This document shows positions 1 to 14,863 of a stretch of DNA of 16,001 bases, piece by piece. The stretch comes from Desulfobulbus sp. (GTDB lineage: Bacteria; Desulfobacterota; Desulfobulbia; Desulfobulbales; Desulfobulbaceae). The DNA is taken from NCBI GenBank assembly GCA_030602145.1, contig JAUWAH010000007.1, positions 1 through 16,001 on the forward strand, in the 5' to 3' direction. Position 1 is the stretch's first letter; each line of letters begins with the position of its first letter. Under the pieces are notes generated by a model that saw only the letters and a program-made list of their open reading frames with translations, had not been told where the DNA came from and did no database searches. The translations under genes were made by a program, and so were the position numbers.

Positions 1-49
1 TTGCCGTTTGCTTTGAGCTATTGGCCCTGAAAGGGGCAAGGAGACCTCT

Positions 50-346
50 ATGCTGAAAAAAAGCTATTCCAAAACCGGAACGGCCTGCCGCGTCACCTTC
101 AAATACGAAAATGAAGAGAACGCCGCTTCCGCCGTCCTGGCGGGCGAATTTAACGGCTGGTCCCTGTATGAGACACCGATGAAGAAACTCAAGGACGGCA
201 GCTTCTCGGCCACCCTTTCCCTGCCCGCCGGACAAAGCTACCGTTTTCGCTATGTGCTCGACGGCGGTGTCTGGGTCAACGACAGCGATGCCGACGGCTA
301 CGCCCCCAACGAGTACGGCGAGGCCAATTCGGTCCTGACCATCTGA
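50..346 (+). CDS. Small stand-alone CBM48 (AMPK/isoamylase-N-type glycogen-binding) protein
   Basis: This 98-residue protein is almost entirely one CBM48/isoamylase N-terminal-like beta-sandwich. It shows the GEFNGW motif (residues 32-37), a following charged loop, the YRFRYVLDG strand (64-72), the tryptophan of VWVND (75) and a final NEYG turn (87-90). In this family these aromatic residues contact alpha-glucan chains, and the domain usually sits on branching or debranching enzymes or AMPK beta subunits. Here no catalytic domain follows, so a glycogen-binding or targeting role is inferred. The start is supported by AAGGAG at 38-43, six bases before the ATG. A small hairpin (21-28 with 32-39, one mismatch) touches that ribosome site. 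The gene is convergent with the carbonic anhydrase gene, with a 30-base gap. There is no signal peptide or membrane segment, so it is presumably cytoplasmic. Confidence 0.85.
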   Translation: MLKKSYSKTGTACRVTFKYENEENAASAVLAGEFNGWSLYETPMKKLKDGSFSATLSLPAGQSYRFRYVLDGGVWVNDSDADGYAPNEYGEANSVLTI

Positions 347-376
347 CCGGGTCGTCAGGCAGGGTCGGCGGGCGGC

Positions 377-931
377 TTAAAAGCAGTCGCCCACCCTGGC
401 CCGGTGATACTCGTTTTTAAGGGCCACATAGCGGCGCCAGGAGGCGTGCATCTCCTCGACCTGGGCATCTGTAACCTCCTTGACCACCTTGGCCGGCGTG
501 CCCATGATCAGGCTGCGGGGAGGAAACTGCTTGCCGGGGGTGACCACCGAGCCGGCGCCGACGATCGACTCCCGTCCGATGACCGCACCGTCGAGGATGA
601 TGGCCCCCATGCCGATCAGACAGAGATCGCCCACCGTGCAGCCATGGAGAATGGCCCGGTGGCCGACGGTGACATCGGCGCCGATGATGGTGGGGTGGCC
701 GTCCCGGTCGTCCCGCTCCGCTCCTTCATGCTGGGTGATGTGGAGCAGGCTGAGATCCTGGATGTTGGTGCGAGGCCCGATGCGGATGCGGTGGACATCG
801 CCCCGGCAGATGACCCCGAACCACAGGGACACATCCTCGCCCAGAATCACATCGCCGATCAGGGTGGCATTGGGAGCCACCCACCCGCCTGTGCCGACCT
901 GCGGCTGATAGTCACGGTATGGCAGAATCAT
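377..931 (-). CDS. Gamma-carbonic anhydrase family protein (left-handed beta-helix)
   Basis: The 184-residue length and hexapeptide-repeat pattern (I-G-x-x-x-x turns such as LIGDVILGEDV and IIGADVTVG) are those of the YrdA/PaaY/CamH-like gamma-carbonic anhydrase family. The three predicted zinc ligands are present: H64 in SLLH, H91 in VGH and H96 in ILHG. So is the conserved NIQD motif (56-59). Family members hydrate CO2 or act as metal-binding trimers of unclear function, so enzymatic activity is likely but not certain. The loop after H64 (about residues 66-80) is acidic and somewhat long. The start is secure: AGGAGG lies about four bases before the ATG. A consensus-like promoter sits about 115 bases upstream inside the end of the ABC gene, so the gene is probably transcribed on its own. 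Confidence 0.92.
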   Translation of the reverse strand: MILPYRDYQPQVGTGGWVAPNATLIGDVILGEDVSLWFGVICRGDVHRIRIGPRTNIQDLSLLHITQHEGAERDDRDGHPTIIGADVTVGHRAILHGCTVGDLCLIGMGAIILDGAVIGRESIVGAGSVVTPGKQFPPRSLIMGTPAKVVKEVTDAQVEEMHASWRRYVALKNEYHRARVGDCF

Positions 932-1043
932 CGTTCCTCCTTGTATCTTGGGGCAATGGGCCGGTCGCCTCCGAAGGCGCCGTGCACCGGGTGAATCGCT
1001 CGGGACCTTGCTCCGTCTTCGCTTCCGGATGCAATGTCTTGCT

Positions 1044-1071
1044 ATTATAATGCCGGTCCATGGCTGGTCAA
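1044..1071 (-). promoter_or_regulatory. Predicted sigma70 promoter for the gamma-carbonic anhydrase gene
   Basis: On the minus strand TTGACC (1066-1071) and a perfect TATAAT (1044-1049) are separated by 16 bases. They read toward the carbonic anhydrase start at 931. The -10 box contains the TAA stop codon of the ABC ATPase gene (1047-1045). The expected start point near 1037 would give a leader of roughly 106 bases. Confidence 0.55.
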
Positions 1072-2541
1072 CCGCCCGCCCCCCTCGGTCGAGGGTTTTT
1101 CATCGCTGGCCGGCGAGGAACTGTGGCGGGGTTCGAAGCAGATGCGCTGGCGGAAAAAATCACGATATTCGTCCGTGCGGTGGCTGACATAGACGATGGT
1201 CGCCAGGTCCTCGGCGGCGAGCCGGGCGAGGAAATCGAGCAGTGCCCGGCGGTTGGCCTCGTCCAGGCCCTGGGTCGGTTCGTCGAGGATCAGCAGCTGC
1301 GGGGTCTTGATCAGGGCGCGGGCCAGCAGGATCAGCCGCTGCTCGCCGTAACTCAGTCGCAGAAAGGACTGCTGGGCCCGGTGGGCCAGGTTGAGTCGCC
1401 GCAACCACCGCCGGCCCAGTTGCAACTCGGCCGGACTGGGCCGGGTGTAGAGGCCGATCGAGTCGAACAGGCCGGAGACGACGATGGCCAGGGCGCTGCC
1501 GGCCACCCGGTGGTTGCGGTGCAGGTCCGGGCTGACAATGCCCATGTGCCGCTTCAGTTCCCAGATCGACTCGCCGCTGCCCCGCCGCCTGCCGAACAGG
1601 GAGAGGTCGTTGACGTAGCAGAGGGGATGATCGCCGGTGATCATCTGGAGGAGGGTTGATTTGCCGCAGCCGTTGGGACCGGTGATCAGGGTGTGGTCAC
1701 CCCGGTTGATGGTCAAATCCAGGCCGGAGAAGACCTCGATGTCCTCATAGCGGGCAAATCCCCGACGCAGGGTGACCAGATTGTCGCCCGGCATCTTCTC
1801 CGCATCCAACCTTCGCTCCCCGCGCAGTTCCTCGACCGAAACCTGGAAGAGCGGCCTCTGGCCGGCAAGCAGGGCTTCGATCCCGGCCAGAACCGAGGAC
1901 CGTTGCCCCTGGATGACAAGGGTGCCGTTGGCAAAGGCGCCCAGATGGGTGCACCACGACGGCATATCGGCGCGGTTGTTGACCAGGAGAAGCAGACCGA
2001 TGCCCTGGCGGTGCACGCCGGCCAGGACCCGGTCCAGGTCCCGGCAACCGGCCTGATCGAGTCCCTCGTAGGGGTTTTCCAGGATGAGCAGGGCAACACC
2101 CAGGCAGAGTTGCTGGACGAGGCAGAGTTTGCGCGCCTGGCCGGAACTGAGTTGCCGGTAGCCCCGATCGAGCACGCCATCGAGGGCGAACAGGTCGACC
2201 AGGTGACGATGGCGCTCGATGTCGGGGACAAAGGCCCGCGCCGGCGTGCCGGGATCGATCCGGCCGAGATAATCGGTGTCGTCCTTGCGCAGTTCGGCCT
2301 CGAAGATCGACTGCTGCCGTTTGAAGGAAAGCACCCCCGCGGCCGCTGGCAGGTCCAGGCGGGCGGCATGGTACCGGATCGGTTCGCCGGCGATCAGTTC
2401 GCCGAACGGACCAATACCGGACCCGTTGCCGCCGATCAGGCACCAGGCCTCGCCCGCACCGATCGTCAGCCTGTCGACAGCCAGGCCGTCGGCCACCAGC
2501 CCTTCGATGACCAGCCGACCGTTCTCGTCCCCGCCGGTCAT
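1045..2541 (-). CDS. ModF/PhrA-like tandem ABC ATPase with a degenerate first ATPase domain
   Basis: This 498-residue soluble protein has two ABC nucleotide-binding domains and no membrane segment, the plan of the ModF (PhrA, 'photorepair protein') family, whose precise role is unsettled. Domain 2 looks complete: Walker A GPNGCGKST (288-296), signature LSYGEQ (396-401), Walker B LLILDEP (416-422) and the H-loop histidine in YVSH (454). Domain 1 keeps the signature LSSGQ (131-135). However, its Walker A reads GGNGSGIG (37-44), with the lysine and following serine lost, and its Walker B region reads LLILENPYEGLD (151-162), lacking both the usual Asp and the catalytic Glu. One catalytically dead site is therefore predicted. 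The gene starts within the aldo/keto reductase stop (ATGA), implying translational coupling. The last 25 residues are low complexity. Confidence 0.88.
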   Translation of the reverse strand: MTGGDENGRLVIEGLVADGLAVDRLTIGAGEAWCLIGGNGSGIGPFGELIAGEPIRYHAARLDLPAAAGVLSFKRQQSIFEAELRKDDTDYLGRIDPGTPARAFVPDIERHRHLVDLFALDGVLDRGYRQLSSGQARKLCLVQQLCLGVALLILENPYEGLDQAGCRDLDRVLAGVHRQGIGLLLLVNNRADMPSWCTHLGAFANGTLVIQGQRSSVLAGIEALLAGQRPLFQVSVEELRGERRLDAEKMPGDNLVTLRRGFARYEDIEVFSGLDLTINRGDHTLITGPNGCGKSTLLQMITGDHPLCYVNDLSLFGRRRGSGESIWELKRHMGIVSPDLHRNHRVAGSALAIVVSGLFDSIGLYTRPSPAELQLGRRWLRRLNLAHRAQQSFLRLSYGEQRLILLARALIKTPQLLILDEPTQGLDEANRRALLDFLARLAAEDLATIVYVSHRTDEYRDFFRQRICFEPRHSSSPASDEKPSTEGGGRLTSHGPAL

Positions 2542-3491
2542 TCGTCCCAGAGTTGTGCCAGGCTGTAGGGTGACCCCCCTCCGGTGAAGAACGAGCCATC
2601 GACGAAGCGGTAGCCCCGGTCAAGGGCGGCGATGTCGGCCATGTCCTCGGCGTCGAGCACCAGGTTGATGGCGGCCAGGTTCTGCCGCAGCCGCTCCGGA
2701 TGGACCGATTTGGGAATGACCACGGTCCGGCGCCCCAGTCCCCAGGCGAGCAGGACCTGGGCCGGGGTGGCCCGATGCCTGGCCGCCACCTTTTGGATGA
2801 CCGGATGGTCGAGCAGGGTCGGCTCGTCCTTCTTTTTCAGAGCTGCGGGGCGGTCGCCCGAGCCGAGCGGCGAATAGGCGGTGACCAGGATACCCTTGTC
2901 CCTGCAGAAGGCGAGCATCGGCTCCTGCTGCAGATAGGGGTGGAGTTCGATCTGGTTCATCGCCGGCGGAATGGTTGCCTGCCGACAGAGGGCGTCCAGT
3001 TTGGCGACGCTGAAATTGCAGACGCCGATGTGTCGGGTCAGTCCATCGGCCACACACTCCTCCATCGCCCTCCAGGTGTCGATGATCGGCATGTCCTCGA
3101 GGGGAACATAGTCCGCGCCGCTACGGGGGAAGAGCACCCCCGGCTTGAAGGCCACCGGCCAGTGGACGAGATAGAGGTCGAGATAGTCGACCCGCAGGTC
3201 GGCCAGTGTCTTTTTCAGGGCAGCTCGCACCCGGTCGGGGGCGTGGGCATCGTTCCACAGTTTGGAGGTGATCCAGAGATATCCCCGGGAAACCCGGCCG
3301 GTGGCGATGACCTCGGCGATTGCCCCACCCACTTCGGGCTCGTTCTGATAGATGGGGGCGCAGTCGATGTGCCGGTAGCCGATGGCCAGGGCATCCTTGA
3401 CCGCATCCTGAACCGCTCCGGGTGCGGCCTTCCAGGTGCCAAGACCAAGGGCGGGCGGTTTTCCGGTCCCGTCGAGGGAAAAAGTGAGCAT
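2538..3491 (-). CDS. Aldo/keto reductase (AKR superfamily)
   Basis: This NADPH-dependent carbonyl reductase of the (beta/alpha)8 AKR superfamily is 317 residues, normal for the family. The catalytic tetrad falls at canonical positions: D43, Y48, K77 and H110. The HIDCAPIYQNE, SKLWN and LVHWP motifs surround it, and the NADP-binding VIPKS segment is near the C terminus. The reading frame stays open upstream to about 3719. The chosen ATG at 3491 has AGGAGG about six bases before it and begins the normal first strand, while the upstream extension has no family resemblance. Substrate cannot be read from sequence; alcohol or aldehyde reductase is the general expectation. The gene is first in a two-gene unit with the downstream ABC ATPase (four-base overlap). 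Confidence 0.93.
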   Translation of the reverse strand: MLTFSLDGTGKPPALGLGTWKAAPGAVQDAVKDALAIGYRHIDCAPIYQNEPEVGGAIAEVIATGRVSRGYLWITSKLWNDAHAPDRVRAALKKTLADLRVDYLDLYLVHWPVAFKPGVLFPRSGADYVPLEDMPIIDTWRAMEECVADGLTRHIGVCNFSVAKLDALCRQATIPPAMNQIELHPYLQQEPMLAFCRDKGILVTAYSPLGSGDRPAALKKKDEPTLLDHPVIQKVAARHRATPAQVLLAWGLGRRTVVIPKSVHPERLRQNLAAINLVLDAEDMADIAALDRGYRFVDGSFFTGGGSPYSLAQLWDE

Positions 3492-3578
3492 GGGTGGACC
3501 TCCTCGTGGTTTCGGGTGGATGCGGTCCGGCATGGGGCCGGTTGGCTGCCAAATTGTTGGCGGCTGTTTATTTCTGGT

Positions 3579-3607
3579 ACAGTAAAAAGGTGCCGCCCAT
3601 CCGTCAA
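3579..3607 (-). promoter_or_regulatory. Possible promoter for the aldo/keto reductase unit
   Basis: On the minus strand TTGACG (3602-3607) lies 17 bases from TACTGT (3579-3584), pointing at the reductase start. The -35 is good and the -10 is poor. An 8-base inverted repeat (GTTTATTT at 3566-3573, AAATAAAC at 3610-3617) brackets the element and could be an operator. A separate plus-strand TACAAT (3704-3709) may be the -10 for the diguanylate cyclase, but no good -35 goes with it. The rest of 3492-3770 shows no gene. Confidence 0.3.
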
Positions 3608-3770
3608 ATAAATAAACCGACGTGTTTCCTGCCGCCTGTCCGGCCTTCGGTCCGTTGACGGGAAGAGATCTTTTTTTTTCTTCGGCCTGCTGCGGGTTGG
3701 GGATACAATAGAACAGCACGGAGATCGGCCGGGCTCAACCGGAAAGATGAGGAGGCAACACACCGTCGTG

Positions 3771-5144
3771 ATGAAGGGCAAGGCACCACCGGATCTGAAG
3801 ATCCACAAGGAAATGGCGGACCAGCAAACCGTGGTCGTGGTCGATGACAGCGCCACCATGCGCGCCGTTATCCAAAAGGAGCTGGAGGTGGCCGGATTCC
3901 GCGTCGTCACCTTCAGCGACGGCCTGGAAGCCCTGTCCTCGCTGCGCTGGATGCAGAAGCTGCCCGACCTGATCACCCTGGACATCGACATGCCGCGAAT
4001 GGACGGCTTCGCCTGCTGCGAGCAGCTCAGGGAGATGGAGGCTCAGGGTGTGTACGGCGATATCAGGACGCCGACCCCCGTCCTCTTCGTATCCGCCAAC
4101 GACACCTTCGACCACCGCAGCCGAGGGTTTCATCTCGGCAGCCTGGAATTCATCTCCAAACCCTTCGCCCGCGGCGACATCGCCGCGGCAGTCTGCAAGG
4201 TGCTGCGGCCGCAAACGGTCTTTGCCGGCATGAGCGGGTTGGTGGTCGACGACAACCAGAGCCTCCGGCGGATGGTCCGCTCCTGCCTGGAGAGGTTCGG
4301 CCTGACGATCATCGAGGCGGAGAACGGCCGCCATGCCTTTGAGCTGCTCAAGGAAAATTTGGTGCAGATCGATCTGGCGATCGTCGATTACGACATGCCG
4401 GTGATGCGGGGTGACGAGTTCATTCACCTGGCCCGACAGCTTCCCGAGGTCGAACACCTGCCCCTGCTTTCCCTCAGCGGGACCGGTGAAAGCCAGGCGG
4501 TGCTGCGGATGTTCCGGGCCGGGGCCACCGATTACCTGGTTAAACCGTTCCTCGCCGAGGAGCTGCTGGCCCGGGTGCAGGTGCATCTCCAACTCCGCCG
4601 TCACATGCGCCGCCTGGAGGAAATGAACCGCAACCTCTACGACAAGGCGGTCAACGACTCCTTGACCGGGCTGCGCAACAAGCGCTACTTCCAGGAGGCC
4701 TTCGAGGAGATGTTCGCCCGGGCCCAGCGCTCACGGTCCGACCTGAGCTGCCTCTTTTTCGATCTCGATCACTTCAAGAAGGTCAACGACACCTGCGGCC
4801 ACGGTTTCGGCGACTATGTCCTCACCACCATCGGCGGGTTGGTGAAACAGCATATTCGCTGCGGCGATCTCGCCGCCCGGTTCGGCGGCGAGGAGTTCGT
4901 CATCGCCCTGCCCAACACCGGCCTGGAGGGGGCACAGTTCGTGGCCGAAAAGATCCGCGCCCTGGTGGAGGCCCATGGTTTCAAGGACCAGGGCCGGCAG
5001 TGGGCGGTCACCATCAGCATCGGGGTGGCTTCCCTGCACGCCCACCAGGCGAAGACCGCGGCAGCCCTGCTGCATGCCGCTGATCAGGGGCTGTACCGTG
5101 CTAAAAATGGCGGTCGCAACCGGGTCGCCAGCGACCCGGAGTGA
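3771..5144 (+). CDS. PleD-like diguanylate cyclase (REC-REC-GGDEF)
   Basis: This 457-residue response regulator makes the second messenger cyclic di-GMP from two GTP. REC1 (about 18-147) has acidic residues VVDD and phospho-acceptor D71 in TLDIDMP, with K130 in SKP. REC2 (about 155-275) has D206 in VDYDMP and K258 in VKPF. The GGDEF domain (about 290-450) has an intact active-site GGEEF (372-376) and an upstream RxxD inhibitory site (R363-D366, five residues before it), so product inhibition is expected. The order matches Caulobacter PleD, except that here both REC domains keep the acceptor Asp. The start is uncertain. ATG 3771 and GTG 3768 follow AGGAGG (3750-3755) at a long spacing. An ATG at 3747 would add eight residues, and ATG 3813 is also possible. 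No cognate kinase is adjacent on this strand. Confidence 0.92.
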   Translation: MKGKAPPDLKIHKEMADQQTVVVVDDSATMRAVIQKELEVAGFRVVTFSDGLEALSSLRWMQKLPDLITLDIDMPRMDGFACCEQLREMEAQGVYGDIRTPTPVLFVSANDTFDHRSRGFHLGSLEFISKPFARGDIAAAVCKVLRPQTVFAGMSGLVVDDNQSLRRMVRSCLERFGLTIIEAENGRHAFELLKENLVQIDLAIVDYDMPVMRGDEFIHLARQLPEVEHLPLLSLSGTGESQAVLRMFRAGATDYLVKPFLAEELLARVQVHLQLRRHMRRLEEMNRNLYDKAVNDSLTGLRNKRYFQEAFEEMFARAQRSRSDLSCLFFDLDHFKKVNDTCGHGFGDYVLTTIGGLVKQHIRCGDLAARFGGEEFVIALPNTGLEGAQFVAEKIRALVEAHGFKDQGRQWAVTISIGVASLHAHQAKTAAALLHAADQGLYRAKNGGRNRVASDPE

Positions 5145-5197
5145 TCCGTTCCCCCCTTGCGCCGTCCATCGGGACAGGGCTGATGTGCTTCAGGTGC

Positions 5198-5234
5198 CCC
5201 GAATTGTCCGCCTGGCAATGTGTCCAGATTCGGG
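5198..5234. repeat. Inverted repeat between convergent genes
   Basis: CCCGAAT (5198-5204) and ATTCGGG (5228-5234) form a perfect 7-base inverted repeat with a 23-base loop, in the 105-base gap between the convergent cyclase and REC/beta-helix genes. There is no T-run on either side, so it is not a typical intrinsic terminator, although it may act as a weak bidirectional structure. Confidence 0.3.
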
Positions 5235-5249
5235 AGCAGGTGAAGAAGT

Positions 5250-6959
5250 TTACTCCGGGCAGCTATGGTAATCCGAAGGCGCGGCACCTTCATGCATGCC
5301 ATAGAGCCTGATGTTCTTCCTGCTGAAGTAAGTGGCGGCCGGCACCGCAATGATGTTTCGCCTCTTGTTGGCGTGCACCATCGCATTTTCATCGTCAATA
5401 TGGATCAACCTGTCGCCAAGCCCCTTGGCGTCAAACTCAGCCCTTGGTTTGAGGATCGCCCTCAACTTGCCCCCTTCGTACAGTTCCCCCTTTTCCAGCA
5501 GTTCTTGGAATGTGTCGTGGGTGACATGGCCGCAGACCAGATGGTGGTCCGGTATGATTATCCTGTCATAGGCACTCCGGCCCCGTATGGTCGTCAGGGG
5601 GCCGGCGACACTGCCCTTGCCGAGGTTGACGTTTTCAAGCATGCAGTGGAACAGGGTGGCCGAGTAGGCCTCCATCTTGACGTTGCTCGTCCACACACCG
5701 TGGGCGCCAATATTGTAGCCGCCAAAATAGGTTGCTTTTCGGATGTTGTGATCCTGGATGTTGACATTCGGGCCGTCGAATTCGCAGCTTTTTATATGGG
5801 CAAATGGCCCGATGTAGAGATTCCGCACCCGGGGCGACAAGATGTGCAAGCTTTCGATGAACGCCAACGGGTCGAAGAATCCGATGCCCATCTTGTTGTG
5901 TTTGTGATCCTTGGCCACCGACGCCCTCATGAGGGTGAAGGATTGCTGGAATTGATCTTTCTGCATTTCGACCGCTTCGGGGGGCAGGTGGATGGTGTAG
6001 CCGCCGAACAGGACGGTTCCGGAAGGAACGGATGCCGCCGTGATCTTTTCAGCGATGTAACACGCATCGCCGACTTCGCAGTTGTCGGGCAACTCGCAAG
6101 CGGTATCCAGGACTGTCCTTGAACCGATCAAGACGTCCCGACCGATCTTGCTGCCATGGAAGGTCACGAAAGGATCCGATGAGACACCTTTGCCGATATG
6201 ATTCCATTTCCAGTGCAGGACACTGCCTTCTCTGACACTCCCTTCTATGCAGAATCGATGGCCATTGACAGGGTCGGTTTCGTCGCTTCTGATCACCACC
6301 CGATCGCCCAGGCTTGCAAAGGGGCCGAACTCAATGGAATTAGGCAGTCCTTCGATGACGATATCCCAGCCAGATGGACGGCGAATGTGTGGATCAATGC
6401 GGACCGGTTCGTAGAGTAGCCTGATATCCTGGAGGATTTTCGAAACAGGATTGCCCGTATCGATAAAGACATACCTGACATGGGGTGTCGGTGTGTCGGT
6501 GAGATTGAACCCATCGGTCAGCCGCTGAACTCTTCCCCGGTTGTGGATGAATTTGTCTTCGACAAAGAATTCTCCGGGCGGTGGGTGCCTGATCCCTGTT
6601 CCGCTGGCAACGGCCCGGATCTTTTCCAGAAGCACGTCGAGATCCACCGGTTTCTCGAGAACATCGGCGGCCCCGAGTTTCATGGCCTGGACGCCGTTTG
6701 CCACGGTGGCATGGCCGGTGAGCAAGATGATTCGCTGGTGGAGGTTCCTTGGCACCAATTCTTCCAGGACTTGCAGGCCGTCCATTTCCGGCATTTGTAA
6801 ATCGAGAAGAATGGCATCGACCAATGTGTTCTGCAATCTTGAGAGCGCCGTCTGGCCCGAAGAGGCCGTTTCGACCTCCAGACCCCTGAGGATCAGGCGT
6901 TCAGATAAAACATCGAGAAACTCTTGGTCATCGTCGATCAACAGTACCTTTTCAGTCAT
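5250..6959 (-). CDS. Response regulator with REC domain fused to a left-handed beta-helix (hexapeptide-repeat) domain
   Basis: This 569-residue protein starts with a complete REC domain: D10/D11, phospho-acceptor D53 in LLDLQMPEMDG, T81 and K103 in EKP. After a linker (about 120-200) come two blocks of hexapeptide-like turns typical of left-handed beta-helices. They span about 200-325 (for example FGPFASLGDRVVI, SKIGRDVLIGSRTVL) and about 370-480 (YIGPFAHIKS, GGYNIGAHGVW, LGKGSVAGPLTTIRG). A charged helical linker (328-356) separates them. The tail to 569 is unrecognised. Beta-helix proteins are usually acyl- or nucleotidyl-transferases or carbonic anhydrases. Block 2 carries NIQD (400-403) as in gamma-carbonic anhydrases, but the VGHxxxxH zinc pattern is not evident. 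As an output domain for a REC this is unusual, and the function is unknown. AAGGAC precedes the ATG, which overlaps the upstream REC stop (ATGA). It is the last gene of the operon. Confidence 0.85.
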   Translation of the reverse strand: MTEKVLLIDDDQEFLDVLSERLILRGLEVETASSGQTALSRLQNTLVDAILLDLQMPEMDGLQVLEELVPRNLHQRIILLTGHATVANGVQAMKLGAADVLEKPVDLDVLLEKIRAVASGTGIRHPPPGEFFVEDKFIHNRGRVQRLTDGFNLTDTPTPHVRYVFIDTGNPVSKILQDIRLLYEPVRIDPHIRRPSGWDIVIEGLPNSIEFGPFASLGDRVVIRSDETDPVNGHRFCIEGSVREGSVLHWKWNHIGKGVSSDPFVTFHGSKIGRDVLIGSRTVLDTACELPDNCEVGDACYIAEKITAASVPSGTVLFGGYTIHLPPEAVEMQKDQFQQSFTLMRASVAKDHKHNKMGIGFFDPLAFIESLHILSPRVRNLYIGPFAHIKSCEFDGPNVNIQDHNIRKATYFGGYNIGAHGVWTSNVKMEAYSATLFHCMLENVNLGKGSVAGPLTTIRGRSAYDRIIIPDHHLVCGHVTHDTFQELLEKGELYEGGKLRAILKPRAEFDAKGLGDRLIHIDDENAMVHANKRRNIIAVPAATYFSRKNIRLYGMHEGAAPSDYHSCPE

Positions 6960-7378
6960 GGTGTCCTTTTTTTGAACAGTTGATGGAAGAACTTGCCCGA
7001 TTGTGGCGCAGGTTTCTTTGCGGTGGCGACTTTGGTTATTTTTTCCACCAATTCTCTGATGTCGATGGGTTTTTCGAGGACATCGGCCGCGCCGAGTTTC
7101 ATGGCCTGCACCCCTTTGGCCACCGTGGCATGGGCGGTCAACAAGATGATTTGCTGGCCGGGAACCATGTCCGTGAGCTTCTCCAGGGTTTGCAGCCCAT
7201 CCATTTCCGGCATCTGCAGGTCAAGCAGAATGACGTCGAACGATTCGCTTTTCAGTCGATCAAGGGCAATTCGGGACGATACCGCAGTTGTCACGTCAAA
7301 TCCTCGTATGGCCAGTCGTTCCGAAAGCACATCGAGAAACTCTTGATCATCGTCGATCAGTAACACCTGTATAGACAT
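6956..7378 (-). CDS. Single-domain response regulator (REC only)
   Basis: A 140-residue CheY-like receiver with all key residues: D10/D11, phospho-acceptor D53 in LLDLQMPEMDG, T81 and K103 in EKP. There is no output domain, only a short basic tail (about 118-140). By eye it is roughly two-thirds identical, without gaps, to the REC domain of the downstream beta-helix protein, which points to a tandem duplication. AGAGGA lies a few bases before the ATG. The stop overlaps the next start (ATGA), so the two are translationally coupled. It probably acts as a phosphate shuttle or sink in the relay encoded by the operon (inference). Confidence 0.92.
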   Translation of the reverse strand: MSIQVLLIDDDQEFLDVLSERLAIRGFDVTTAVSSRIALDRLKSESFDVILLDLQMPEMDGLQTLEKLTDMVPGQQIILLTAHATVAKGVQAMKLGAADVLEKPIDIRELVEKITKVATAKKPAPQSGKFFHQLFKKRTP

Positions 7379-7424
7379 GGCATCCTCTCTGGGAAAAGGC
7401 TTTGATCAATCGAATGCGGCCTTT

Positions 7425-8093
7425 TTAGTCGATGAATTTTTTGGGCATCCTGAGCTGAATGGTCCGATTGGTCTGATCGTTGTAGATTTGAGCCTTGAGG
7501 AAGAGAATGATCGGTTTGCCCTCCTCGGATATAGCCGCCTTTGTGGCTGCTGTATCTATTTCATGGCTGAAGTTCATAACGATGACAACATCGGTCTCAA
7601 TTTCTTGAAAAGCAAAATCCAGAGTCAGGTTTGTGTCGCTGTCATGGCGTTGAAAGATATTCTTCAGGCATATCCAAACCATATTCTGAAGAATGAAGGG
7701 GATGGTTTCGACCTTGATCGTGTCGTCCTGGGAAAACGTGAAGGCAATGCCTTTCATGGCTGCAATGCGATGTGCCAAGGCAACCGTCGATTCAACAATT
7801 TCGCGGAGAGTTACAGTGGTGACCGGACCGCTGACGCTGTGGGCAAACTGATTCAATCTGCGGACGATATCATCGGCATGCTGCACCCGGCGGCGGATAT
7901 TTTCAGCAATCGTTTCCAGGCGGGCCGGGTCGAGCGGTCGCCCCTTGTCCGTCAGGGCGACGAGATCACCAAGCAACCCCGCGTTCTCATTGATGATGGC
8001 CAGGCCATTCTTGATTTCATGGGAGATCGATGCCGTCATGCGGCCAAAGTAATCCAGGCCCAGGGTGTCGACTTTGCCGTGAGAACCGTTCAT
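7425..8093 (-). CDS. DHp-domain histidine phosphotransfer-like protein with degenerate ATPase half
   Basis: This 222-residue soluble protein begins with a kinase-type dimerization/phosphoacceptor segment: SISHEIKNGLAIINENAGLL, with predicted phospho-accepting H25, followed by a second helix to about residue 85. The C-terminal half (about 95-222) aligns in position with an HATPase domain. It has only a worn N-box-like stretch (LQNMVWICLKN, 135-145) and no DxGxG, F-box or GxGxG motifs, so ATP binding is not expected. This plan, DHp plus a dead CA fold, is that of Spo0B and ChpT, which pass phosphate between response regulators. The H-box closely resembles that of the 600-residue kinase upstream. 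Start 8093 is chosen because AAGGAG stands seven bases before it and it overlaps the REC stop (ATGA). An in-frame upstream ATG at 8117 lacks such support. Base composition is visibly AT-rich (27 of 60 G+C in 7621-7680). Confidence 0.8.
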   Translation of the reverse strand: MNGSHGKVDTLGLDYFGRMTASISHEIKNGLAIINENAGLLGDLVALTDKGRPLDPARLETIAENIRRRVQHADDIVRRLNQFAHSVSGPVTTVTLREIVESTVALAHRIAAMKGIAFTFSQDDTIKVETIPFILQNMVWICLKNIFQRHDSDTNLTLDFAFQEIETDVVIVMNFSHEIDTAATKAAISEEGKPIILFLKAQIYNDQTNRTIQLRMPKKFID

Positions 8094-8464
8094 TGTCTGT
8101 CTCCTTGCTCTGCGCATATTTCGTGAAGTTTGGCGGTGAGTACATCGATCTGCACGGGCTTGATCAGGTAATACTCCCGGCCGCTTTCAGCCGAACAAGC
8201 GTTGAAGTCCTCTTCCGAGCCATGGCCGGTGAGAAAAATGAACTTCATGGTCGGTTGTTTGGCCTCGATCAACCGTTTCAAGTCGAGGCCGTTCATTTCC
8301 GGCAGCCTGACATCGAGCAGGGCGATGTCGAACCGTTCCCGGTCGACCGCTTCGAGGGCGGCCCTGTGATTGGTGACCCAGCAGGCGGTTATGCCTCGCA
8401 TTTCCAATCGTTCCGCTAAAGTTGCCACCAACTCTTCTTCATCGTCAACCAGCAGTACGCGCAT
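8090..8464 (-). CDS. Single-domain response regulator (REC only)
   Basis: A 124-residue receiver with acidic D7/D8, phospho-acceptor D51 in LLDVRLPEMNG, T79 and K102 in IKP, and no output domain. The alpha4 region (SAESGREYY, 91-99) departs from the LGAxDYL pattern of its neighbours, so its partner surface may differ. GGAG lies about six bases before the ATG. The first 20 bases overlap the end of the upstream kinase gene, and its stop overlaps the DHp gene start, so all three are probably co-translated. It is placed between the kinase and the phosphotransfer-like protein, as expected for the first receiver of a phosphorelay (inference). Confidence 0.92.
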   Translation of the reverse strand: MRVLLVDDEEELVATLAERLEMRGITACWVTNHRAALEAVDRERFDIALLDVRLPEMNGLDLKRLIEAKQPTMKFIFLTGHGSEEDFNACSAESGREYYLIKPVQIDVLTAKLHEICAEQGDRQ

Positions 8465-10247
8465 GGGGGGGCTCCGGGTATGTTTGTAGTGAAAGCGGCA
8501 GAGTAACGGTTATGGTTGTTCCTTGGTCGACAACGCTTTCGATGGATATCGAGCCGCCGAGTTCGGTGACCAGGCCATAGGTGATGGATAATCCCAGCCC
8601 GGTGCCGCCGCTGCCGCTCTTGGTGGTGAAAAAGGGCTCAAATATTTTTTCCAGATTTTCCGGGGGGATGCCGCATCCGGTGTCGCTGATGGTGGTGATG
8701 ATCCGGGTACCGTCATCACTCAGGCGGCTTTGTATGGCCAATTGGCCCCCGCCCTTCATGGCCGCAAAGGCGTTGTTGATCAGGTTGATGAACACCTGTT
8801 GGAGCTTGCCGCGATCGCTGAACAGTTCCGGAATGGTGTCGGGAATATCCACGCTGACCGTAATGTTTTGGTGGGCAGCCTCCCTGGCCTGAAACTCCAA
8901 AACGTCTCCAACCACCTTGCTCAGATGCACCTGCTGAACCGTGACCTGGATATTGCGAGCAAAATTCAACAATTGACGGGTTATCGTCGCGCACCGTTCC
9001 ACAGAGTGGATAATCGAATCCACCAGGCCGAGCAGGCGCTTGTCGCCGGCATACTCTTGACGGAAGGTGAAGAGATCTTTGATCAACCCGGCCTTTTCGT
9101 TGATGATGGCCAACGGGTTGTTGATTTCATGGGCGACGCCGGCCGAGAGTCGACCGATCGAAGCCATCTTGTTGGCATATTCGGCCTGATGGAGGGATGC
9201 CAACCGCTTCTGGTCTGACTGATAGATGTTGTTCACCAGGTAGGTGCAAATACCGACCACCACGGCAACTATGGCGAGCACGGAGACTGCCAGGAAAACG
9301 AGCAGTTGGCTGTCTGTGCTTTTCCAGGTTTGCACCAGGTCGTTCTTGTGTTTGACGATCAGCAGGATATACGGGGTGTCGATGATATAGGCGTAGCCGA
9401 CGATCACCCTCCTGCCGAGATGATCCACTTGCTCGAAGGTTTCGGTATGTTCCGAAAAGGGCGGCACTCCAAGGGGGAATGTCTGCATGATGTTGCCATA
9501 GTGGCGAGAGGGCGTCTGGATAATCCCCTCCCGGTTGACGAGGAACGCCTCGCCGTCGCCTCCGACTTCAAGATGGGACAGAATGGTGTTTAAGCGTTCA
9601 ACATCGAGACTGGCCCGCAGCAGGTAATGCTCTCCGCCTTCGGGTTTGTTGTGCAACACCGAGATGACAAAATGCGGAGTCATTCGGAAGCCGAGGAAGA
9701 TGTCGCTCACGTCGGAGTGCATGGCCACCGCATGGTTATAGGTTTCCATATCCTTGTAGTGGAGTTTCTTGTACCATTCCTGCTCGCTGTAGTTGATCCC
9801 CTTGATATTGTAGGGTCCTGCGTAGTTCACTTGGGTACCGGTGTGATCAATGAGGCCAAGATCATGCCAATCGCCCAGGCCGCCTCGAAGGTGCTCCAAT
9901 AGTTGACCGAGCCGTTTTTCGTCGGCAAGCTGGTCGAAGGTGTTGTCCAGGGTAAGAAAGTACAGTGCGAATTTCCTTTCCTCCAGGTATGCGGACAGGG
10001 TCCGACGGGCGTTGGAGGCCTGACGGGCCGTCCGCAACACTAATTCCGAATCCAAAGCCCTTTTACTGATGACGTAATCGACGGCAGCCAAGGTGAAAAG
10101 AGGCAGCAGGACCACGGCAAGGGTCACGGCAATGGATTGCTTCCACAACCGTTTGAAGTTGTACAGCGGTTTATACATGCCCGACGATTGATCGGCTTGA
10201 TTCAGGAAACTGGGCTTGTAGTGTTTGAATGGTTCAAGCATGGCCAT
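8445..10247 (-). CDS. Membrane sensor histidine kinase with double-Cache-like sensor domain
   Basis: This 600-residue kinase has a cytoplasmic start, TM1 (about 37-58) and an extracytoplasmic region of about 255 residues with dCache-like features (GLIDHTGTQVNYAGPY, later GDGEAFLVNREGIIQTPS). TM2 (about 314-338), the DHp domain with phospho-accepting H373 in VAHEINNPLA, and a complete HATPase follow: N-box around 488-492, DTGCGIP (522-528), F-box EPFFTTK (537-543) and GGTGLGL (547-553). No HAMP is evident, and a short helical segment (339-360) links TM2 to the DHp. Cache domains bind small ligands such as organic acids or amino acids; the ligand here is unknown. The ATG at 10247 has no clear Shine-Dalgarno sequence, but a possible 32-codon ORF with a strong one ends four bases before it, suggesting coupling. 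An internal ATG at 10178 is the alternative. Confidence 0.93.
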   Translation of the reverse strand: MAMLEPFKHYKPSFLNQADQSSGMYKPLYNFKRLWKQSIAVTLAVVLLPLFTLAAVDYVISKRALDSELVLRTARQASNARRTLSAYLEERKFALYFLTLDNTFDQLADEKRLGQLLEHLRGGLGDWHDLGLIDHTGTQVNYAGPYNIKGINYSEQEWYKKLHYKDMETYNHAVAMHSDVSDIFLGFRMTPHFVISVLHNKPEGGEHYLLRASLDVERLNTILSHLEVGGDGEAFLVNREGIIQTPSRHYGNIMQTFPLGVPPFSEHTETFEQVDHLGRRVIVGYAYIIDTPYILLIVKHKNDLVQTWKSTDSQLLVFLAVSVLAIVAVVVGICTYLVNNIYQSDQKRLASLHQAEYANKMASIGRLSAGVAHEINNPLAIINEKAGLIKDLFTFRQEYAGDKRLLGLVDSIIHSVERCATITRQLLNFARNIQVTVQQVHLSKVVGDVLEFQAREAAHQNITVSVDIPDTIPELFSDRGKLQQVFINLINNAFAAMKGGGQLAIQSRLSDDGTRIITTISDTGCGIPPENLEKIFEPFFTTKSGSGGTGLGLSITYGLVTELGGSISIESVVDQGTTITVTLPLSLQTYPEPPHARTAG

Positions 10248-10251
10248 ATAG

Positions 10252-10350
10252 TCAACAACTCATGCGGGCATTGCCTGGCGCACGGAAGACCGGGTGAGGT
10301 GGATGTGCGGCACATTGTTTTGGTAACTTTGCTGTACACAGGGCAAACAT
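10252..10350 (-). CDS. Possible 32-residue leader peptide upstream of the sensor kinase
   Basis: A short minus-strand ORF begins at ATG 10350 with a strong ribosome site, GGGAGGG (10356-10362), five bases before it. It stops with TGA at 10254-10252, four bases before the kinase ATG. The peptide (starting MFALCTAKLPK, three Cys and several Pro/His) resembles nothing recognised. The support is the ribosome site and the placement, since the kinase itself lacks a good ribosome site. The ORF could serve only to deliver ribosomes, or could be chance. Confidence 0.35.
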   Translation of the reverse strand: MFALCTAKLPKQCAAHPPHPVFRAPGNARMSC

Positions 10351-10368
10351 TGTTTCCCTCCCATAAAA

Positions 10369-10386
10369 GGCTCCCCTTTCGGAGCC
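10369..10386 (-). terminator. Predicted intrinsic terminator after the kinase-like/REC hybrid gene
   Basis: On the minus strand GGCTCC pairs with GGAGCC around a six-base loop and is followed by TTTTA. It lies about 85 bases after the hybrid gene stop and just before the possible leader ORF, so it would separate or attenuate the two minus-strand units. A run of eight T on the minus strand (10456-10463) directly after the gene has only a weak stem before it. No other gene is seen in 10351-10470. Confidence 0.45.
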
Positions 10387-10470
10387 ATGGCGTGCCTGCC
10401 GGCCGACGCGGGCAGGGTGTGGCCAGATCGGCACAAAGCGCGTTCTTGCCCCCCTAAAAAAAAGCCAAAG

Positions 10471-11727
10471 TCAGGCGTCTTTCTGTTGCCTCCGTTCCAT
10501 GATCTTCTCGTTGGCTTTCTTCATCGTTTCGCTGAGCACGTCGATATCCACCGGTTTGTGCAGGTAGGCGAAGGCGCCGAGTTGCATGCAGGTTTCCCGG
10601 TCGGCTTCGCTGCCGTGGCCGGTCAGGATGATCACCTCGATCTCCGGCTGGGTCGCTTTGATCCGTCTCAGCACCTCAATGCCGTCGATGCCGGGCATTT
10701 TCAGGTCGAGGATCATGACGTCGGGCTCATCCTCGCTGGCCATCTGCAAGGCTGATTCGCCGTCGTAGGCAATCGTCGAACCCATGTCTCGAAGGAGCAG
10801 GCGTTCTGACAGTGTCTGCACGAATTCGCGTTCGTCGTCGACGAGCAGCACTCGGGCAGGGGTTTGAAAATGGAGTTTGCGGATGATGTCCGCCTGGTGA
10901 AAATTCTTGCCAACCTCGGTGCTCACTTGTTTCACCCCTTCGATCTTGTTGACGATGTCTTTGAGTTCCTGCTCCAGGCGGCCGAGCATAAGGACGTTTT
11001 TTTCGATGGTCAGGGAAACCGCTCCATTTTTTACTTTGACGCTGAGCTCATGGCCTTCCAGGGCGAGCGCCGCCTGGACGTGGCCCTCCAGGGCCAGGCC
11101 CAACTGGACCTTGGCCTGCAGCCGGAAATCGGCGAGGGCGGTGAGCGACGCCTCGGTGGGGGTCAGCACTTCGGAATGGAGATTCCGTACGATTAGTTGC
11201 ACGCTCTCCTCGACGCCGACCTTGTCGGTTGGAAGCAGGATGTCGTAGATCGCCTGGTCCCAGGGGTCAGGCTTGTTGAGGACCTGCATGGTCCAGGCGG
11301 CCATGTCCTCATCGCTCCTATGTATGGCCTTTGAGGGGTCTTTGTCCGGTTTGGGCATGGAGTGCGCCCGCTTGATGCGATGGGTCATGTCTGCGACCAG
11401 GCAGACCCTGAGGATGTGCGAAATCGTGGGTGGAATCAGGTGGCTGCAAAAACCGTGGATGATCAGGCCGTCTTCGGCAACGATTTCGGAGACAGCCACC
11501 CTGAGGTAGGCGATGGATCGCTCTTTCTCGTGGGTGAGGGGGTTGAGGAGCGAGGTCTTGGCCGAAAAGGCCCGGCTGATCCGATCGGACGAAATGCCGG
11601 ACAGTTTTTCCGCCAGGTTGACAATCTCGCCGTCGTGTACCAACCGGTAACCGGTTTTGGTGGCCAACTGAGGAACAATCAGCTCTTCGTTGCAATGGAT
11701 GGCGTTACAGACGGTAATAACGGACAT
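10471..11727 (-). CDS. Hybrid protein: degenerate cytidylate-kinase-like domain, BON-like segment and REC domain
   Basis: This is a 418-residue three-part protein. Residues 1-185 resemble the cytidylate-kinase-like family (core GYRLVHDGEIVNLAEKL and IIHGFCSHLIPP). The phosphate-binding loop, normally GxGGR- or GSGK-like after the first strand, reads CNAIHCNEE (7-15), so nucleotide phosphorylation is unlikely. Residues 195-272 look BON-like (LQAKVQL..., VKVKNGAVSLTI, VNKIEGVKQV) with a small internal duplication of LALEGH. Residues 291-410 are a complete REC with phospho-acceptor D341 in MILDLKMPGIDG, T369 and K391. AGAGGA precedes the ATG, which is 12 bases after the SulP stop, so the two are surely co-transcribed. 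It is likely cytoplasmic. A role in sensing or controlling the transporter, or as a branch of the neighbouring relay, is inferred only. Confidence 0.85.
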   Translation of the reverse strand: MSVITVCNAIHCNEELIVPQLATKTGYRLVHDGEIVNLAEKLSGISSDRISRAFSAKTSLLNPLTHEKERSIAYLRVAVSEIVAEDGLIIHGFCSHLIPPTISHILRVCLVADMTHRIKRAHSMPKPDKDPSKAIHRSDEDMAAWTMQVLNKPDPWDQAIYDILLPTDKVGVEESVQLIVRNLHSEVLTPTEASLTALADFRLQAKVQLGLALEGHVQAALALEGHELSVKVKNGAVSLTIEKNVLMLGRLEQELKDIVNKIEGVKQVSTEVGKNFHQADIIRKLHFQTPARVLLVDDEREFVQTLSERLLLRDMGSTIAYDGESALQMASEDEPDVMILDLKMPGIDGIEVLRRIKATQPEIEVIILTGHGSEADRETCMQLGAFAYLHKPVDIDVLSETMKKANEKIMERRQQKDA

Positions 11728-11739
11728 GGGAATCCTCTG

Positions 11740-13878
11740 TTATGGGTGGATGACTTCCGGCTGGGGATTGATCCCCAGGGGGCAGAGCTTGATCTCTTCC
11801 GGCGAATGCAGGGTTGGGTGAATATGGCGCAGGGCTTCTTCCAGGGTCGGATAGATATGATCGGCTCCGATCTTGGTGTCCAGGTGCGTCCGAATCAACA
11901 CCTTCATTACGGTTTCGTTAATGCCGCTGAAGGAGACATCGATGTTGGCGCTGCGCAAGCGGCCAACCAGCAAGGATAGTGTCTCCTCGCCCGATGCGTC
12001 AATATCATTGATGCCGTTGGCGACGATGAGCACATGACGCAGCGTGGTTTTGCACAGCATCAAATCCGAGATTTTGTCTTCCAGGTAGCTGGCATTGGCG
12101 AAAAAGAGCGGACCTTCAAAGCGAATGAGCGAGAGGTAATCGCACTCCTTCAGGCCCTTGCTGGCCGCACAGACCAGGATTCTGCTGCGATCCCTGGTCA
12201 GCGAGGTCACCACTGGACGCATGTTCTTATAGAGAAAGACCAGCAGGCACAGCACCACACCCAGCATGATCCCCTTGTCCAGGTGGGGTGCGAACCAGAG
12301 CGTGCACAGAAAGGAAAGGATGGAGATCAGGCCGTCGTACCATTGGGCCTTCCAGGCATGCAGAAAGCCGGAAATGTTGATCAGCCCCATGACGGCCATC
12401 ATGATGATGGCCGCCAGCACCGATTGCGGCAGGTGATAGAGGAGAGGGGTGAAGAAGAGCAGGGTGCCGACAACCGTCAACCCGGTAAATACGCTGGAGA
12501 AACCTGTGATGGCTCCGGCCTGGAGGTTGACGGCGGATCGGGAAAAGGAACCGGAGGCGGGATAGCTCTTACCGATGGCACCAATGATGTTCGCCAGCCC
12601 CTGGCCGATCAACTCCTGGTTGGGGTCGATCCGCTGGCCAGTTTTACTGGCGATGGCCTTGGCGATGGAGATCGCCTCCATGAAGCCCAGAAGCGAGATG
12701 ATGGCGGCATAGGGAAAAAGGTGGAGCATGATTCCGAGATCGACCGTGGGCACGGACATGGCCGGCAACCCCTTGGGAACGGTGCCGATGACCTCGCCGC
12801 CGCCGGTGAGCGGCAGCTTATCGACCTTGACCGGCTTGTTGCCGACCTGGATTCTCCAAGTCCGGCCGTCGGTTTGCGCCCCGGCCGGCAGTTGGTCGAC
12901 CGGATAATAGAGCACGGAACCGTCCGCCTGGATGGACGCCTTGAACAGCAGCAACCGGATCTCCTCCCGGTAGAGGTGAGCCTTGTTCTTTAACTCCTCG
13001 ATTTTGGACTGCATGACCCGATCGTCGTGCTCGGCATCGAGTCTGGCGATGGCATTGTGCCCTTTCTTGGCTTGCTCGAGTCGTTTGCTGGTTTTGGTCC
13101 GTTCCTCGGCCAGGGGAGTTATCCCATCGACAGCCTCATTGAAGGAGGCGATCAATGCCCGGGCCTCGGGCGATTGAATGGCGGAGCCGGCCACGGTGGT
13201 TCGATGCTCGAAACCGATGGCCCAGGAGAGCAGGGTGGTGATGATGACCGCCACCAGGACATTGGGAACTCTGGGGGCGAGACGTTTGAGGGCGATCATG
13301 ATGGCCAGGGCCAGAACGCCGATGAAGAGGGTCGGCCAATGGGTGTAATGCACCGCCGACTGGACGACCCTGAGAATGGTTTCGTAGTGGTGCTCGGCAT
13401 TGTCGACATTCACCCCGAACATTTTGGATAATTGTGAGGTGGCGATGATGATGGCCGCGGCGTTGGTGAAACCGTTGACCACCGGGTGGGAGAGGAAATT
13501 GACCACCAGTCCCAGGCGGAGGATGCCGAGGGCAAGCTGAAAGACGCCGACGAGGAGGGAGAGCAGGATGGCATAGGCGATGAAACTCTCGCTACCGGCG
13601 GTGGCCAACGGTTCAAGGGAGGCGGCTGTCATCAGTGAAACCACGGCCACCGGCCCGGTGGCCAGTTGACGGCTCGATCCGAACAGCGAGGCGACCATCG
13701 GCGGTAAAAAGGCGGCATACAGGCCGTAATAGGCAGGCATGCCGGCCAACTGCGCGTAGGCCATGGACTGGGGGATAAGGACCAGGGCGACCGTCAGGCC
13801 GGCGATGGCGTCCGCCTTGAACATGGTCGGATTGTATCCCGTAAACCAGTCGAGGAAGGGAAAAATTCGTCTGATCAT
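11740..13878 (-). CDS. SulP/SLC26-family inorganic anion transporter with STAS domain and large insertion
   Basis: This 712-residue membrane transporter probably moves sulfate, bicarbonate or another small anion. The SulP signature lies near the N terminus (IAGLTVALVLIPQSMAYAQLAG, 25-46, then YYGLYAAFLPP and the GSSRQLATGP loop). The SYPASGSFSRSAVN motif is at about 438-451, and a STAS domain fills about 581-690. The family commonly has GDVPxGLP after the central helices. Here the equivalent GTVPKGLP (365-372) is preceded by about 134 extra residues (231-364) containing a long charged coiled coil and a beta-rich piece. The start ATG 13878 begins MIRRIFPFLDWF with GAGG about 13 bases upstream. 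The frame is open back to a TTG at 13938, but that extension is unlike the family. The gene is 61 bases after tetR and 12 bases before the hybrid REC gene. Confidence 0.93.
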   Translation of the reverse strand: MIRRIFPFLDWFTGYNPTMFKADAIAGLTVALVLIPQSMAYAQLAGMPAYYGLYAAFLPPMVASLFGSSRQLATGPVAVVSLMTAASLEPLATAGSESFIAYAILLSLLVGVFQLALGILRLGLVVNFLSHPVVNGFTNAAAIIIATSQLSKMFGVNVDNAEHHYETILRVVQSAVHYTHWPTLFIGVLALAIMIALKRLAPRVPNVLVAVIITTLLSWAIGFEHRTTVAGSAIQSPEARALIASFNEAVDGITPLAEERTKTSKRLEQAKKGHNAIARLDAEHDDRVMQSKIEELKNKAHLYREEIRLLLFKASIQADGSVLYYPVDQLPAGAQTDGRTWRIQVGNKPVKVDKLPLTGGGEVIGTVPKGLPAMSVPTVDLGIMLHLFPYAAIISLLGFMEAISIAKAIASKTGQRIDPNQELIGQGLANIIGAIGKSYPASGSFSRSAVNLQAGAITGFSSVFTGLTVVGTLLFFTPLLYHLPQSVLAAIIMMAVMGLINISGFLHAWKAQWYDGLISILSFLCTLWFAPHLDKGIMLGVVLCLLVFLYKNMRPVVTSLTRDRSRILVCAASKGLKECDYLSLIRFEGPLFFANASYLEDKISDLMLCKTTLRHVLIVANGINDIDASGEETLSLLVGRLRSANIDVSFSGINETVMKVLIRTHLDTKIGADHIYPTLEEALRHIHPTLHSPEEIKLCPLGINPQPEVIHP

Positions 13879-13939
13879 GCTGTTGCTGCACCTCGGAGCG
13901 TTAAGTAAGGGTTGATAACCGTAGGCAGTGCCCACCAAT

Positions 13940-14530
13940 CTAGTCCGTTCTTTTCTCCAACATCCGCCGACAGGCGTTCACCAATTCCCCGGAGAGCGCC
14001 CTGACGTCGTAGAGGTTGTTCATCCGGAACCTGACCATGCTGTCCGCCATGGCAAAGACGATCAGGGCCGATCTCTGCGCCGAGAGGTCGGGGGCGATGG
14101 AGCCGTCCTTCTGGCCGGTGAGGATGGCGTTTTCAAAGAGTCCGACGAAACTGTTGTAGATAGCCTCGAGAATGTCCCGGCATTCCGGGGAGCTTTCCGC
14201 CAGTTCGTACGGATAGCGCTGGTGAAGGATGGCGAACAGGTCTTCGTGGTTGGCGGCCATGAAAAGGTAGAAGGAGAGCGATTCCTCCACCATGTCAAGC
14301 CCGGTCTTTTCCGACTCCGCATGGCAATACCGTTCAAATTCCGGGAGGATGCCTTCTTTCAGCTTGTTCAGGATGGCCAGAAAGATACCCTGCTTGCTCT
14401 TGAAGTGATAGAAAATGGTCCCCTCGGCCACCCCGGTCATCTTCGACAGCTCGCCCATGGCGGTGTCCTTGTACCCTTTTCTCGAGAAGAGGAAGGTTGC
14501 GGCCTGGAGCAATGCCTCCTTTTTCTTCAT
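13940..14530 (-). CDS. TetR/AcrR-family transcriptional regulator
   Basis: This 196-residue repressor-type protein has an N-terminal TetR helix-turn-helix (about 3-50, with MGELSKMTGVAEGTIFYHFKSK holding the recognition helix). An all-helical ligand-binding domain (about 70-190) has no recognisable ligand signature. The length is typical. AGGA lies about nine bases before the ATG. It is the first gene of a unit with the SulP transporter and hybrid REC protein. A strong promoter with a 14-base palindrome at its start point lies about 190 bases upstream, so negative autoregulation and control of the transporter are likely (inference). Confidence 0.93.
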   Translation of the reverse strand: MKKKEALLQAATFLFSRKGYKDTAMGELSKMTGVAEGTIFYHFKSKQGIFLAILNKLKEGILPEFERYCHAESEKTGLDMVEESLSFYLFMAANHEDLFAILHQRYPYELAESSPECRDILEAIYNSFVGLFENAILTGQKDGSIAPDLSAQRSALIVFAMADSMVRFRMNNLYDVRALSGELVNACRRMLEKRTD

Positions 14531-14706
14531 GGGCTCTGTCCTGTCGATTGGTCGAATATATGGGTTGCCCGAAACAGGTGGGCAGCCGGGGGTGATGATG
14601 TCAGCCCGCTCTTGGCAGCATGTTCGCGTTGGTTGTCCGGACGGGTGGCCAGGTGCCGGCGTTGATCGGTCGAATCCTGAGTCCGGGTCATGGTCACCGA
14701 AAACAA

Positions 14707-14720
14707 ACTGAGCGCTCAGT
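14707..14720. promoter_or_regulatory. Predicted TetR operator palindrome
   Basis: ACTGAGCGCTCAGT is a perfect 14-base palindrome directly after the tetR -10 box, covering the expected transcription start. An overlapping pair, AAACTGA (14705-14711) and TCAGTTT (14720-14726), adds a second dyad. Size, symmetry and position fit a TetR-family operator. It may also affect any plus-strand transcription toward metY. Confidence 0.65.
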
Positions 14721-14727
14721 CAGTTTT

Positions 14728-14756
14728 CTTTTAAAAGGTTCGCCAAAGACTGTCAA
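14728..14756 (-). promoter_or_regulatory. Predicted sigma70 promoter of the tetR-SulP unit
   Basis: On the minus strand a perfect TTGACA (14751-14756) is followed, after exactly 17 bases, by TAAAAG (14728-14733). The start point would fall near 14721, inside or beside the palindrome. The leader from there to the tetR ATG is about 190 bases. Within it a 54-codon frame (14691-14527) overlaps the tetR start but has no ribosome site, and no other feature is seen. Confidence 0.6.
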
Positions 14757-14793
14757 GAAAAAATTCGGCTCGGGTTAAAAGGAGTGTGGCCGC

Positions 14794-14856: not shown

Positions 14857-14857
14857 T
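14830..14857 (+). promoter_or_regulatory. Possible promoter for metY
   Basis: A perfect TATAAT (14852-14857) follows TGCACA (14830-14835, four of six matches to the -35 consensus) by 16 bases. The start near 14864 would give metY a leader of about 225 bases. The -10 overlaps the stop of the possible small ORF. Confidence 0.35.
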
Positions 14858-14863
14858 TGAAAG

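Follow-up and report, generated by a model that had tools for sequence, protein, structure and literature searches.

A response regulator with a two-lobed beta-helix output related to gamma-carbonic anhydrases in Desulfobulbus sp.

The window analyzed here is a stretch of 16,001 nucleotides of Desulfobulbus sp. (assembly GCA_030602145.1, contig JAUWAH010000007.1, positions 1 to 16,001). Its reverse strand carries a gene, which we call REC-LbH, encoding a receiver domain (REC) followed by a left-handed beta-helix module. The features of the gene are listed below; several are named after their counterparts in gamma-carbonic anhydrases (gamma-CAs).

5250..6959 (-): REC-LbH gene, 569 aa, ATG start, from the open reading frame (ORF) call
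6615..6947 (-): receiver domain, residues 5-115 (D9-D11, D53, T81, K103), PF00072
6000..6371 (-): beta-helix lobe 1, residues ~197-320, homologous to gamma-CAs (PF00132, profile matches)
6282..6290 (-): R224-S-D226, counterpart of gamma-CA R59/D61, in 14/14 module sequences
6213..6215 (-): H249, counterpart of gamma-CA metal ligand H81, in 14/14 module sequences
6156..6158 (-): H268, counterpart of gamma-CA metal ligand H122, in 14/14 module sequences
5922..5981 (-): predicted inter-lobe helix, residues 327-346 (structure models)
5526..5822 (-): beta-helix lobe 2, residues ~380-478 (structure prediction and 3c8v match; no motif signal)
5751..5756 (-): Q402-D403, candidate counterpart of gamma-CA Q75/D76 (14/14; hmmsearch mixed)
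5700..5702 (-): H420, candidate and unsettled counterpart of metal ligand H117 (14/14; alignments both ways)
5325..5522 (-): C-terminal module tail, residues 480-545, with R517 and H529 (3c8v match, alignment)

An earlier note on this sequence had described a complete receiver (D53, T81, K103), and this is borne out. PF00072 matches residues 5-115 with 94.7 bits (E 5e-27, Pfam), and the residues expected of a response regulator (acidic residues, phospho-accepting Asp, Thr or Ser, Lys) are all present, D9-D11, D53, T81 and K103 being identical in the four REC-bearing sequences, window protein included. Beyond the receiver, PF00132 is the only Pfam family above cut-off (residues 254-284, E 4e-7). 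The ATG of REC-LbH overlaps the stop codon of the upstream single-receiver gene REC2 as ATGA and is preceded by the purine-rich AAAAAAAGGACACC, so the two genes are likely co-translated. With this overlap and three more REC-fused proteins from other sources, an assembly artefact or a chance read-through was ruled out.

Residues 125-569 were used as query against 5.77 billion proteins and recovered 12 clusters, including the window protein. Two profile searches then gave 14 clusters and the identical 14 again, so that the set looks saturated for the profile method. A receiver is present in 4 of the 14; the other ten lack it and are 413-454 aa long.

The output adopts a fold that has been solved, that of the PDB entry 3c8v: it has two lobes, the first of which is related to gamma-CAs. 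The left-handed beta-helix proposed in the earlier note is thus upheld by the structure models and by the 3c8v match, but in this two-lobed arrangement and not as one plain trimeric helix. Structure alignments identify the whole module as 3c8v-like at 15-17% identity. The window family and the 3c8v family align with hhalign at a probability of 97.6 (E 4e-12; 24% identity over 266 columns, starting near residue 259); in direct PDB profile searches 3c8v appears at E 0.04 and 0.23. Two structure models have mean pLDDT values of 60.9 and 59.1. In the full model, residues 301-330 and 451-510 reach a mean of at least 90, and residues 121-240 and 341-410 are below 50. As for the two hexapeptide blocks of the note, the first exceeds chance: its best in-phase motif count is 5 per 60 aa, equalled by 3 of 1000 shuffles. 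The second shows no motif signal, 980 of 1000 shuffles scoring as well, and its assignment as a predicted beta-helix relies on structure prediction and the 3c8v match. The tail that had gone unrecognised is part of the 3c8v-like module, R517 and H529 being invariant in 23/23 sequences of the two families in all three MAFFT modes.

Over lobe 1, the best PDB matches of the family profile are of gamma-CA type under various labels (4mfg, E 2e-7; 9rmq, 7e-7; 3r3r, 1e-6; YrdA, 2e-6). R59, D61 and D76 belong to the conserved set of the gamma-CA class. We assembled 14 gamma-CAs for comparison, including one encoded in the window itself, an ordinary-looking 184-aa enzyme in which every site residue is present (377-931, reverse strand, 4.3 kb from REC-LbH). 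Lobe 1 aligns to these 14 with an hhalign probability of 98 (E 2e-13 to 4e-13), pairing R224, D226, H249 and H268 with R59, D61, H81 and H122, and all four are invariant across the 14 module sequences. Q75 and H117 of the gamma-CAs fall on R243 and P263. The hmmsearch alignments agree, using H268 in 14/14 gamma-CAs, H249 in 13 and R224 in 11 (the remainder are gaps), and P263 in 14/14. Gamma-CAs are defined by three metal histidines (H81, H117, H122) in one beta-helix, and the H117 counterpart is missing here. A plain single gamma-CA output was rejected because this counterpart is absent from 14/14 sequences. In the gamma-CA Cam, one monomer supplies H81 and H122 and its neighbour supplies H117, and Q75 is part of a hydrogen-bond network (PMC4519908, excerpt).

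Lobe 2 holds its own invariant residues in the 14 sequences, namely Q402, D403, H404 and, exactly 18 residues past Q402, H420; this spacing equals one beta-helix turn. In 3/3 MAFFT modes, no sequence of either family departs from Q402, H420 or H268. Lobe 2 of the 3c8v family aligns to the gamma-CA 1v3w (E 4.7e-5) placing Q299 at Q75 and H317 at H117, with an isoleucine at each of the H81 and H122 positions, and lobe 2 of the window family aligns weakly to 9gva (E 0.34) with Q402 and H420 at Q75 and H117. Read together, these two alignments would leave each gamma-CA site residue in exactly one lobe. Site residues can indeed be shared unevenly: of the three interfaces in the gamma-CA heterotrimer of plant complex I, one retains the full ligand set (PMC7447434, excerpt).

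REC-LbH lies downstream of same-strand genes for a HisKA protein, REC1, a dCache kinase, a cytidylate-kinase-like-REC protein, SulP-STAS and TetR. The main neighbours are:

6956..7378 (-): REC2 (140 aa), single receiver closely akin to the fused REC (Pfam, receiver tree)
7425..8117 (-): HisKA protein without HATPase match, 230 aa
8090..8464 (-): REC1, single receiver, 124 aa
8445..10247 (-): dCache-HisKA-HATPase sensor kinase, 600 aa, candidate cognate kinase (Pfam; recurs in relatives)
10471..11727 (-): cytidylate-kinase-like protein fused to REC, 418 aa (Pfam)
11740..13938 (-): SulP-STAS anion transporter, 732 aa (Pfam)

The cytidylate-kinase-like domain (PF13189, E 1e-16) with its C-terminal REC is itself an unusual receiver fusion. 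At E<=1e-40, its gene has a match in 16 of the 23 genomes of the genus, including the window's own, and in 23 of 73 family genomes. Among 17 loci examined around it (L052-L068), REC2 closes the series in six (L052, L053, L056, L058, L064 and L065, the contig stopping in L065); in the five others of these six, the next ORF, taken by simple ORF picking, has no blastp match (E<=1e-8) to the module or beta-helix queries. The HisKA protein encoded between REC1 and REC2, in which no ATPase domain was recognised, recurs in the operon of the genus and is possibly a phosphotransfer or phosphatase partner. On the opposite strand, a REC-REC-GGDEF diguanylate cyclase (3747-5144) is convergent with REC-LbH. 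Among the open-access literature matches listed, none describes the operon.

Neighbourhoods of 3c8v-like genes were examined in 11 of the 13 genomes, and a CBS protein adjoins the gene in 8 of the 11 loci. SulP lies upstream of it, with two to four ORFs between, in L069, L087 and L090. There, SulP, a ~240-aa protein, the CBS protein and the 3c8v-like gene form a consecutive row (L069 7884-14454, L087 4847-10666, L090 1672-6883), interrupted by extra small ORFs in L087 and L090 and followed by PPK2 in L069. This row is a second association of SulP with a beta-helix.

We propose that REC-LbH is a response regulator whose output, a 3c8v-type two-lobed gamma-CA-like beta-helix, may form a phospho-switched site for CO2/bicarbonate or a similar anion, a tentative reading in which doubt slightly outweighs belief. 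Of its elements, the fusion, the intact phosphorylation site, the fold, the homology of lobe 1, the retained and lost site residues, the operon and the rarity of the architecture are supported by the data; the kinase pairing, the phospho-switching, the metal, the composite site and the substrate are inferred. The residues that are kept point to a gamma-CA-type site for a metal or an anion, and the adjacent SulP points to bicarbonate or a similar anion. The dCache sensor kinase of the operon would probably phosphorylate D53 of the fused receiver. Once phosphorylated, the receiver could pack differently against the module, or the module could assemble differently, and either change would open or close the gamma-CA-like site. 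H249, H268, R224 and D226 would make up this site, perhaps with Q402 and H420 contributed by lobe 2 to complete it, and its ligand or substrate would likely be CO2/bicarbonate or another small anion carried by SulP. A bolder version, which we consider rather doubtful, is a phospho-switched split-site carbonic anhydrase in which lobe 1 (R59/D61/H81/H122) and lobe 2 (Q75/D76/H117) would be joined by phosphorylation and would set CO2/bicarbonate interconversion beside SulP.

Several observations weigh against this proposal. All 14 module sequences have P, S or N at the site in lobe 1 that corresponds to H117. When the two families are aligned to each other, one MAFFT mode out of three matches R224/D226, and no mode matches H249. 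The site residues sit in low-confidence stretches of the model (pLDDT about 42-62). The structure list of lobe 2 is headed by 3c8v. Gamma-CAs share the 49 rows under it with other beta-helix proteins, at least 9 in number and tied in Z, among them LpxA, GlmU, dynactin and N-acetyltransferases, so that this list makes no choice between gamma-CA and an LpxA/GlmU type. The hhalign comparison of lobe 2 to the gamma-CAs is weak (probability 5, E 0.008); it sets Q402 and D403 against Q75 and D76 but H117 against A431, and a global run misses the site. With the second family, hhalign puts H150 at H117 in lobe 1 and F334 there in lobe 2 (global run). By hmmsearch, H117 falls on H420 in 4/14 with the own-family profile and in 9/14 with the joint profile, and on F334 in 11/14 with the second family alone; Q75 falls on Q402 or its counterpart in the second family in 9/14 (own), 5/14 (joint) and 0/14 (second family). 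Because these lobe 2 registers conflict, a gamma-CA site split between the two lobes is held as a hypothesis. Around the 3c8v-like genes, SulP is near in just 3 of 11 loci, two of the eight loci without it (L088 and L089) ending 1.7 and 0.2 kb upstream. Finally, a SulP clade juxtaposed with the carbonic anhydrase Can2 is contrasted with other SulP clades, bicarbonate transporters among them, which bear STAS and no Can2 (PMC6458275, excerpt); since the window SulP bears STAS, the SulP-carbonic anhydrase link backs the proposal only in general.

The module could instead be a phospho-regulated acyl- or acetyltransferase. The title of 3c8v ('putative acetyltransferase'), the generic PF00132 match, the occurrence of LpxA, GlmU and LpxD in the profile and structure lists, and a relative, P0012, that passes Pfam Hexapep_GlmU (24.6 vs 23.3 bits) all speak for it. 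However, no curated family spans the module beyond generic hexapeptide models in Pfam and the best 25 of 107 NCBIfam rows, these 25 all matching the REC part of the window protein. P0005 and P0012 reach no NCBIfam cut-off among the models listed, and the best profile matches of lobe 1 are of gamma-CA type, with the R-D pair and two class histidines retained. We regard this explanation as unlikely. We give similarly little credence to a module that has lost catalysis and acts as a scaffold or binds a partner, with the receiver controlling its docking, for instance to SulP or to a complex in the membrane. CcmM and the complex I gamma-CA subunits offer comparisons, the plant subunits including some with lost sites (PMC7447434, excerpt), and one of three metal histidines is missing in lobe 1; but H268, Q402, H420 and H529 are invariant across families sharing 24% identity, for which a scaffold has no obvious need.

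In the tree of the modules, the fused forms are on one side of a branch (84/99, 80% of 200 bootstrap trees). In the receiver tree, the fused RECs fall with the REC2 receivers of the operon at 88/87, a value below the starred threshold and accompanied by long-branch warnings, with the REC2 of L058 just outside the group. Three fused RECs are together (97/93) and the fourth, P0004, is unplaced; their pairwise identities are 62-91%. The most economical history has a copy of REC2 joining an already existing module once; the receiver tree by itself does not show this. That the fused receiver is a phosphate sink or dimerisation tag left by REC2 duplication, with little effect on the module, would agree with this grouping and with the ten REC-less clusters but is very unlikely, as the phosphorylation site residues are all kept in 4/4 fused proteins at those identities.

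Among the whole genomes searched, a full-length member was found only in the window's own. Partial matches occurred in 9 of 145 relatives' genomes (E 1e-5 to 9e-4) and elsewhere in 3 of 395 phylum and 14 of 257 class genomes. One of them (L032) is 3c8v-like; 17 other loci of phylum and class (L022-L031, L033-L039) comprise 13 with the full gamma-CA signature, by our own pattern, and 4 without. Two further genome contig matches are presumably LpxD. None of 22 genus mates matched, seven of these genomes being 56-84% complete, nor did any genome in two other classes (0/3 and 0/277, no positive control there). A mobile or viral origin was rejected, plasmids (query P0008) and viral contigs (query A4) being without match.

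The 3c8v protein, from Desulfovibrio desulfuricans G20, represents a separate family of ~472 aa that is REC-less and has the CBS protein alongside in 8 of 11 loci. One paper that names 3c8v concerns, judging from its title, peptide design. Gamma-CAs (Cam/CamH, YrdA, the window's own) share the R59, D61, H81 and H122 counterparts with lobe 1; unlike them, REC-LbH has lost H117 and Q75 in lobe 1 and has two lobes per chain, a long tail and a receiver. Enzymatic response regulators (GGDEF, EAL, CheB) place an enzyme domain after REC. REC-LbH has the same layout with a putative enzyme domain, whose fold is none of those. The plant complex I heterotrimer, with its unequal distribution of site residues between paralogous gamma-CA units and its one composite metal site, would resemble the split site hypothesised for REC-LbH, and differs in that its subunits are separate, unfused and without a receiver domain (PMC7447434, excerpt). 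Neither the REC-beta-helix fusion nor the lobe-wise loss of gamma-CA residues is described among the open-access literature matches listed, most subscription papers being outside this scope. The undescribed output type suggested earlier would lie in the combination and not in the fold, which is solved: fold and receiver were already known, and what appears new, by the matches listed, is their union together with the lobe-wise loss.

In REC-LbH, a beta-helix replaces the usual DNA-binding or enzyme partner of REC, a combination found in just four sequence clusters, and the range of receiver outputs is extended by a gamma-CA-like module that the receiver may drive. A split-site, phospho-switched carbonic anhydrase, if true, would to our knowledge be the first two-component output of its kind. 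The solved fold 3c8v gains the hypothesis of a gamma-CA site split between two fused lobes which, if true, would suggest a function for its family, and two-component signalling would then reach the chemistry of inorganic carbon or anions directly, with no transcriptional step.
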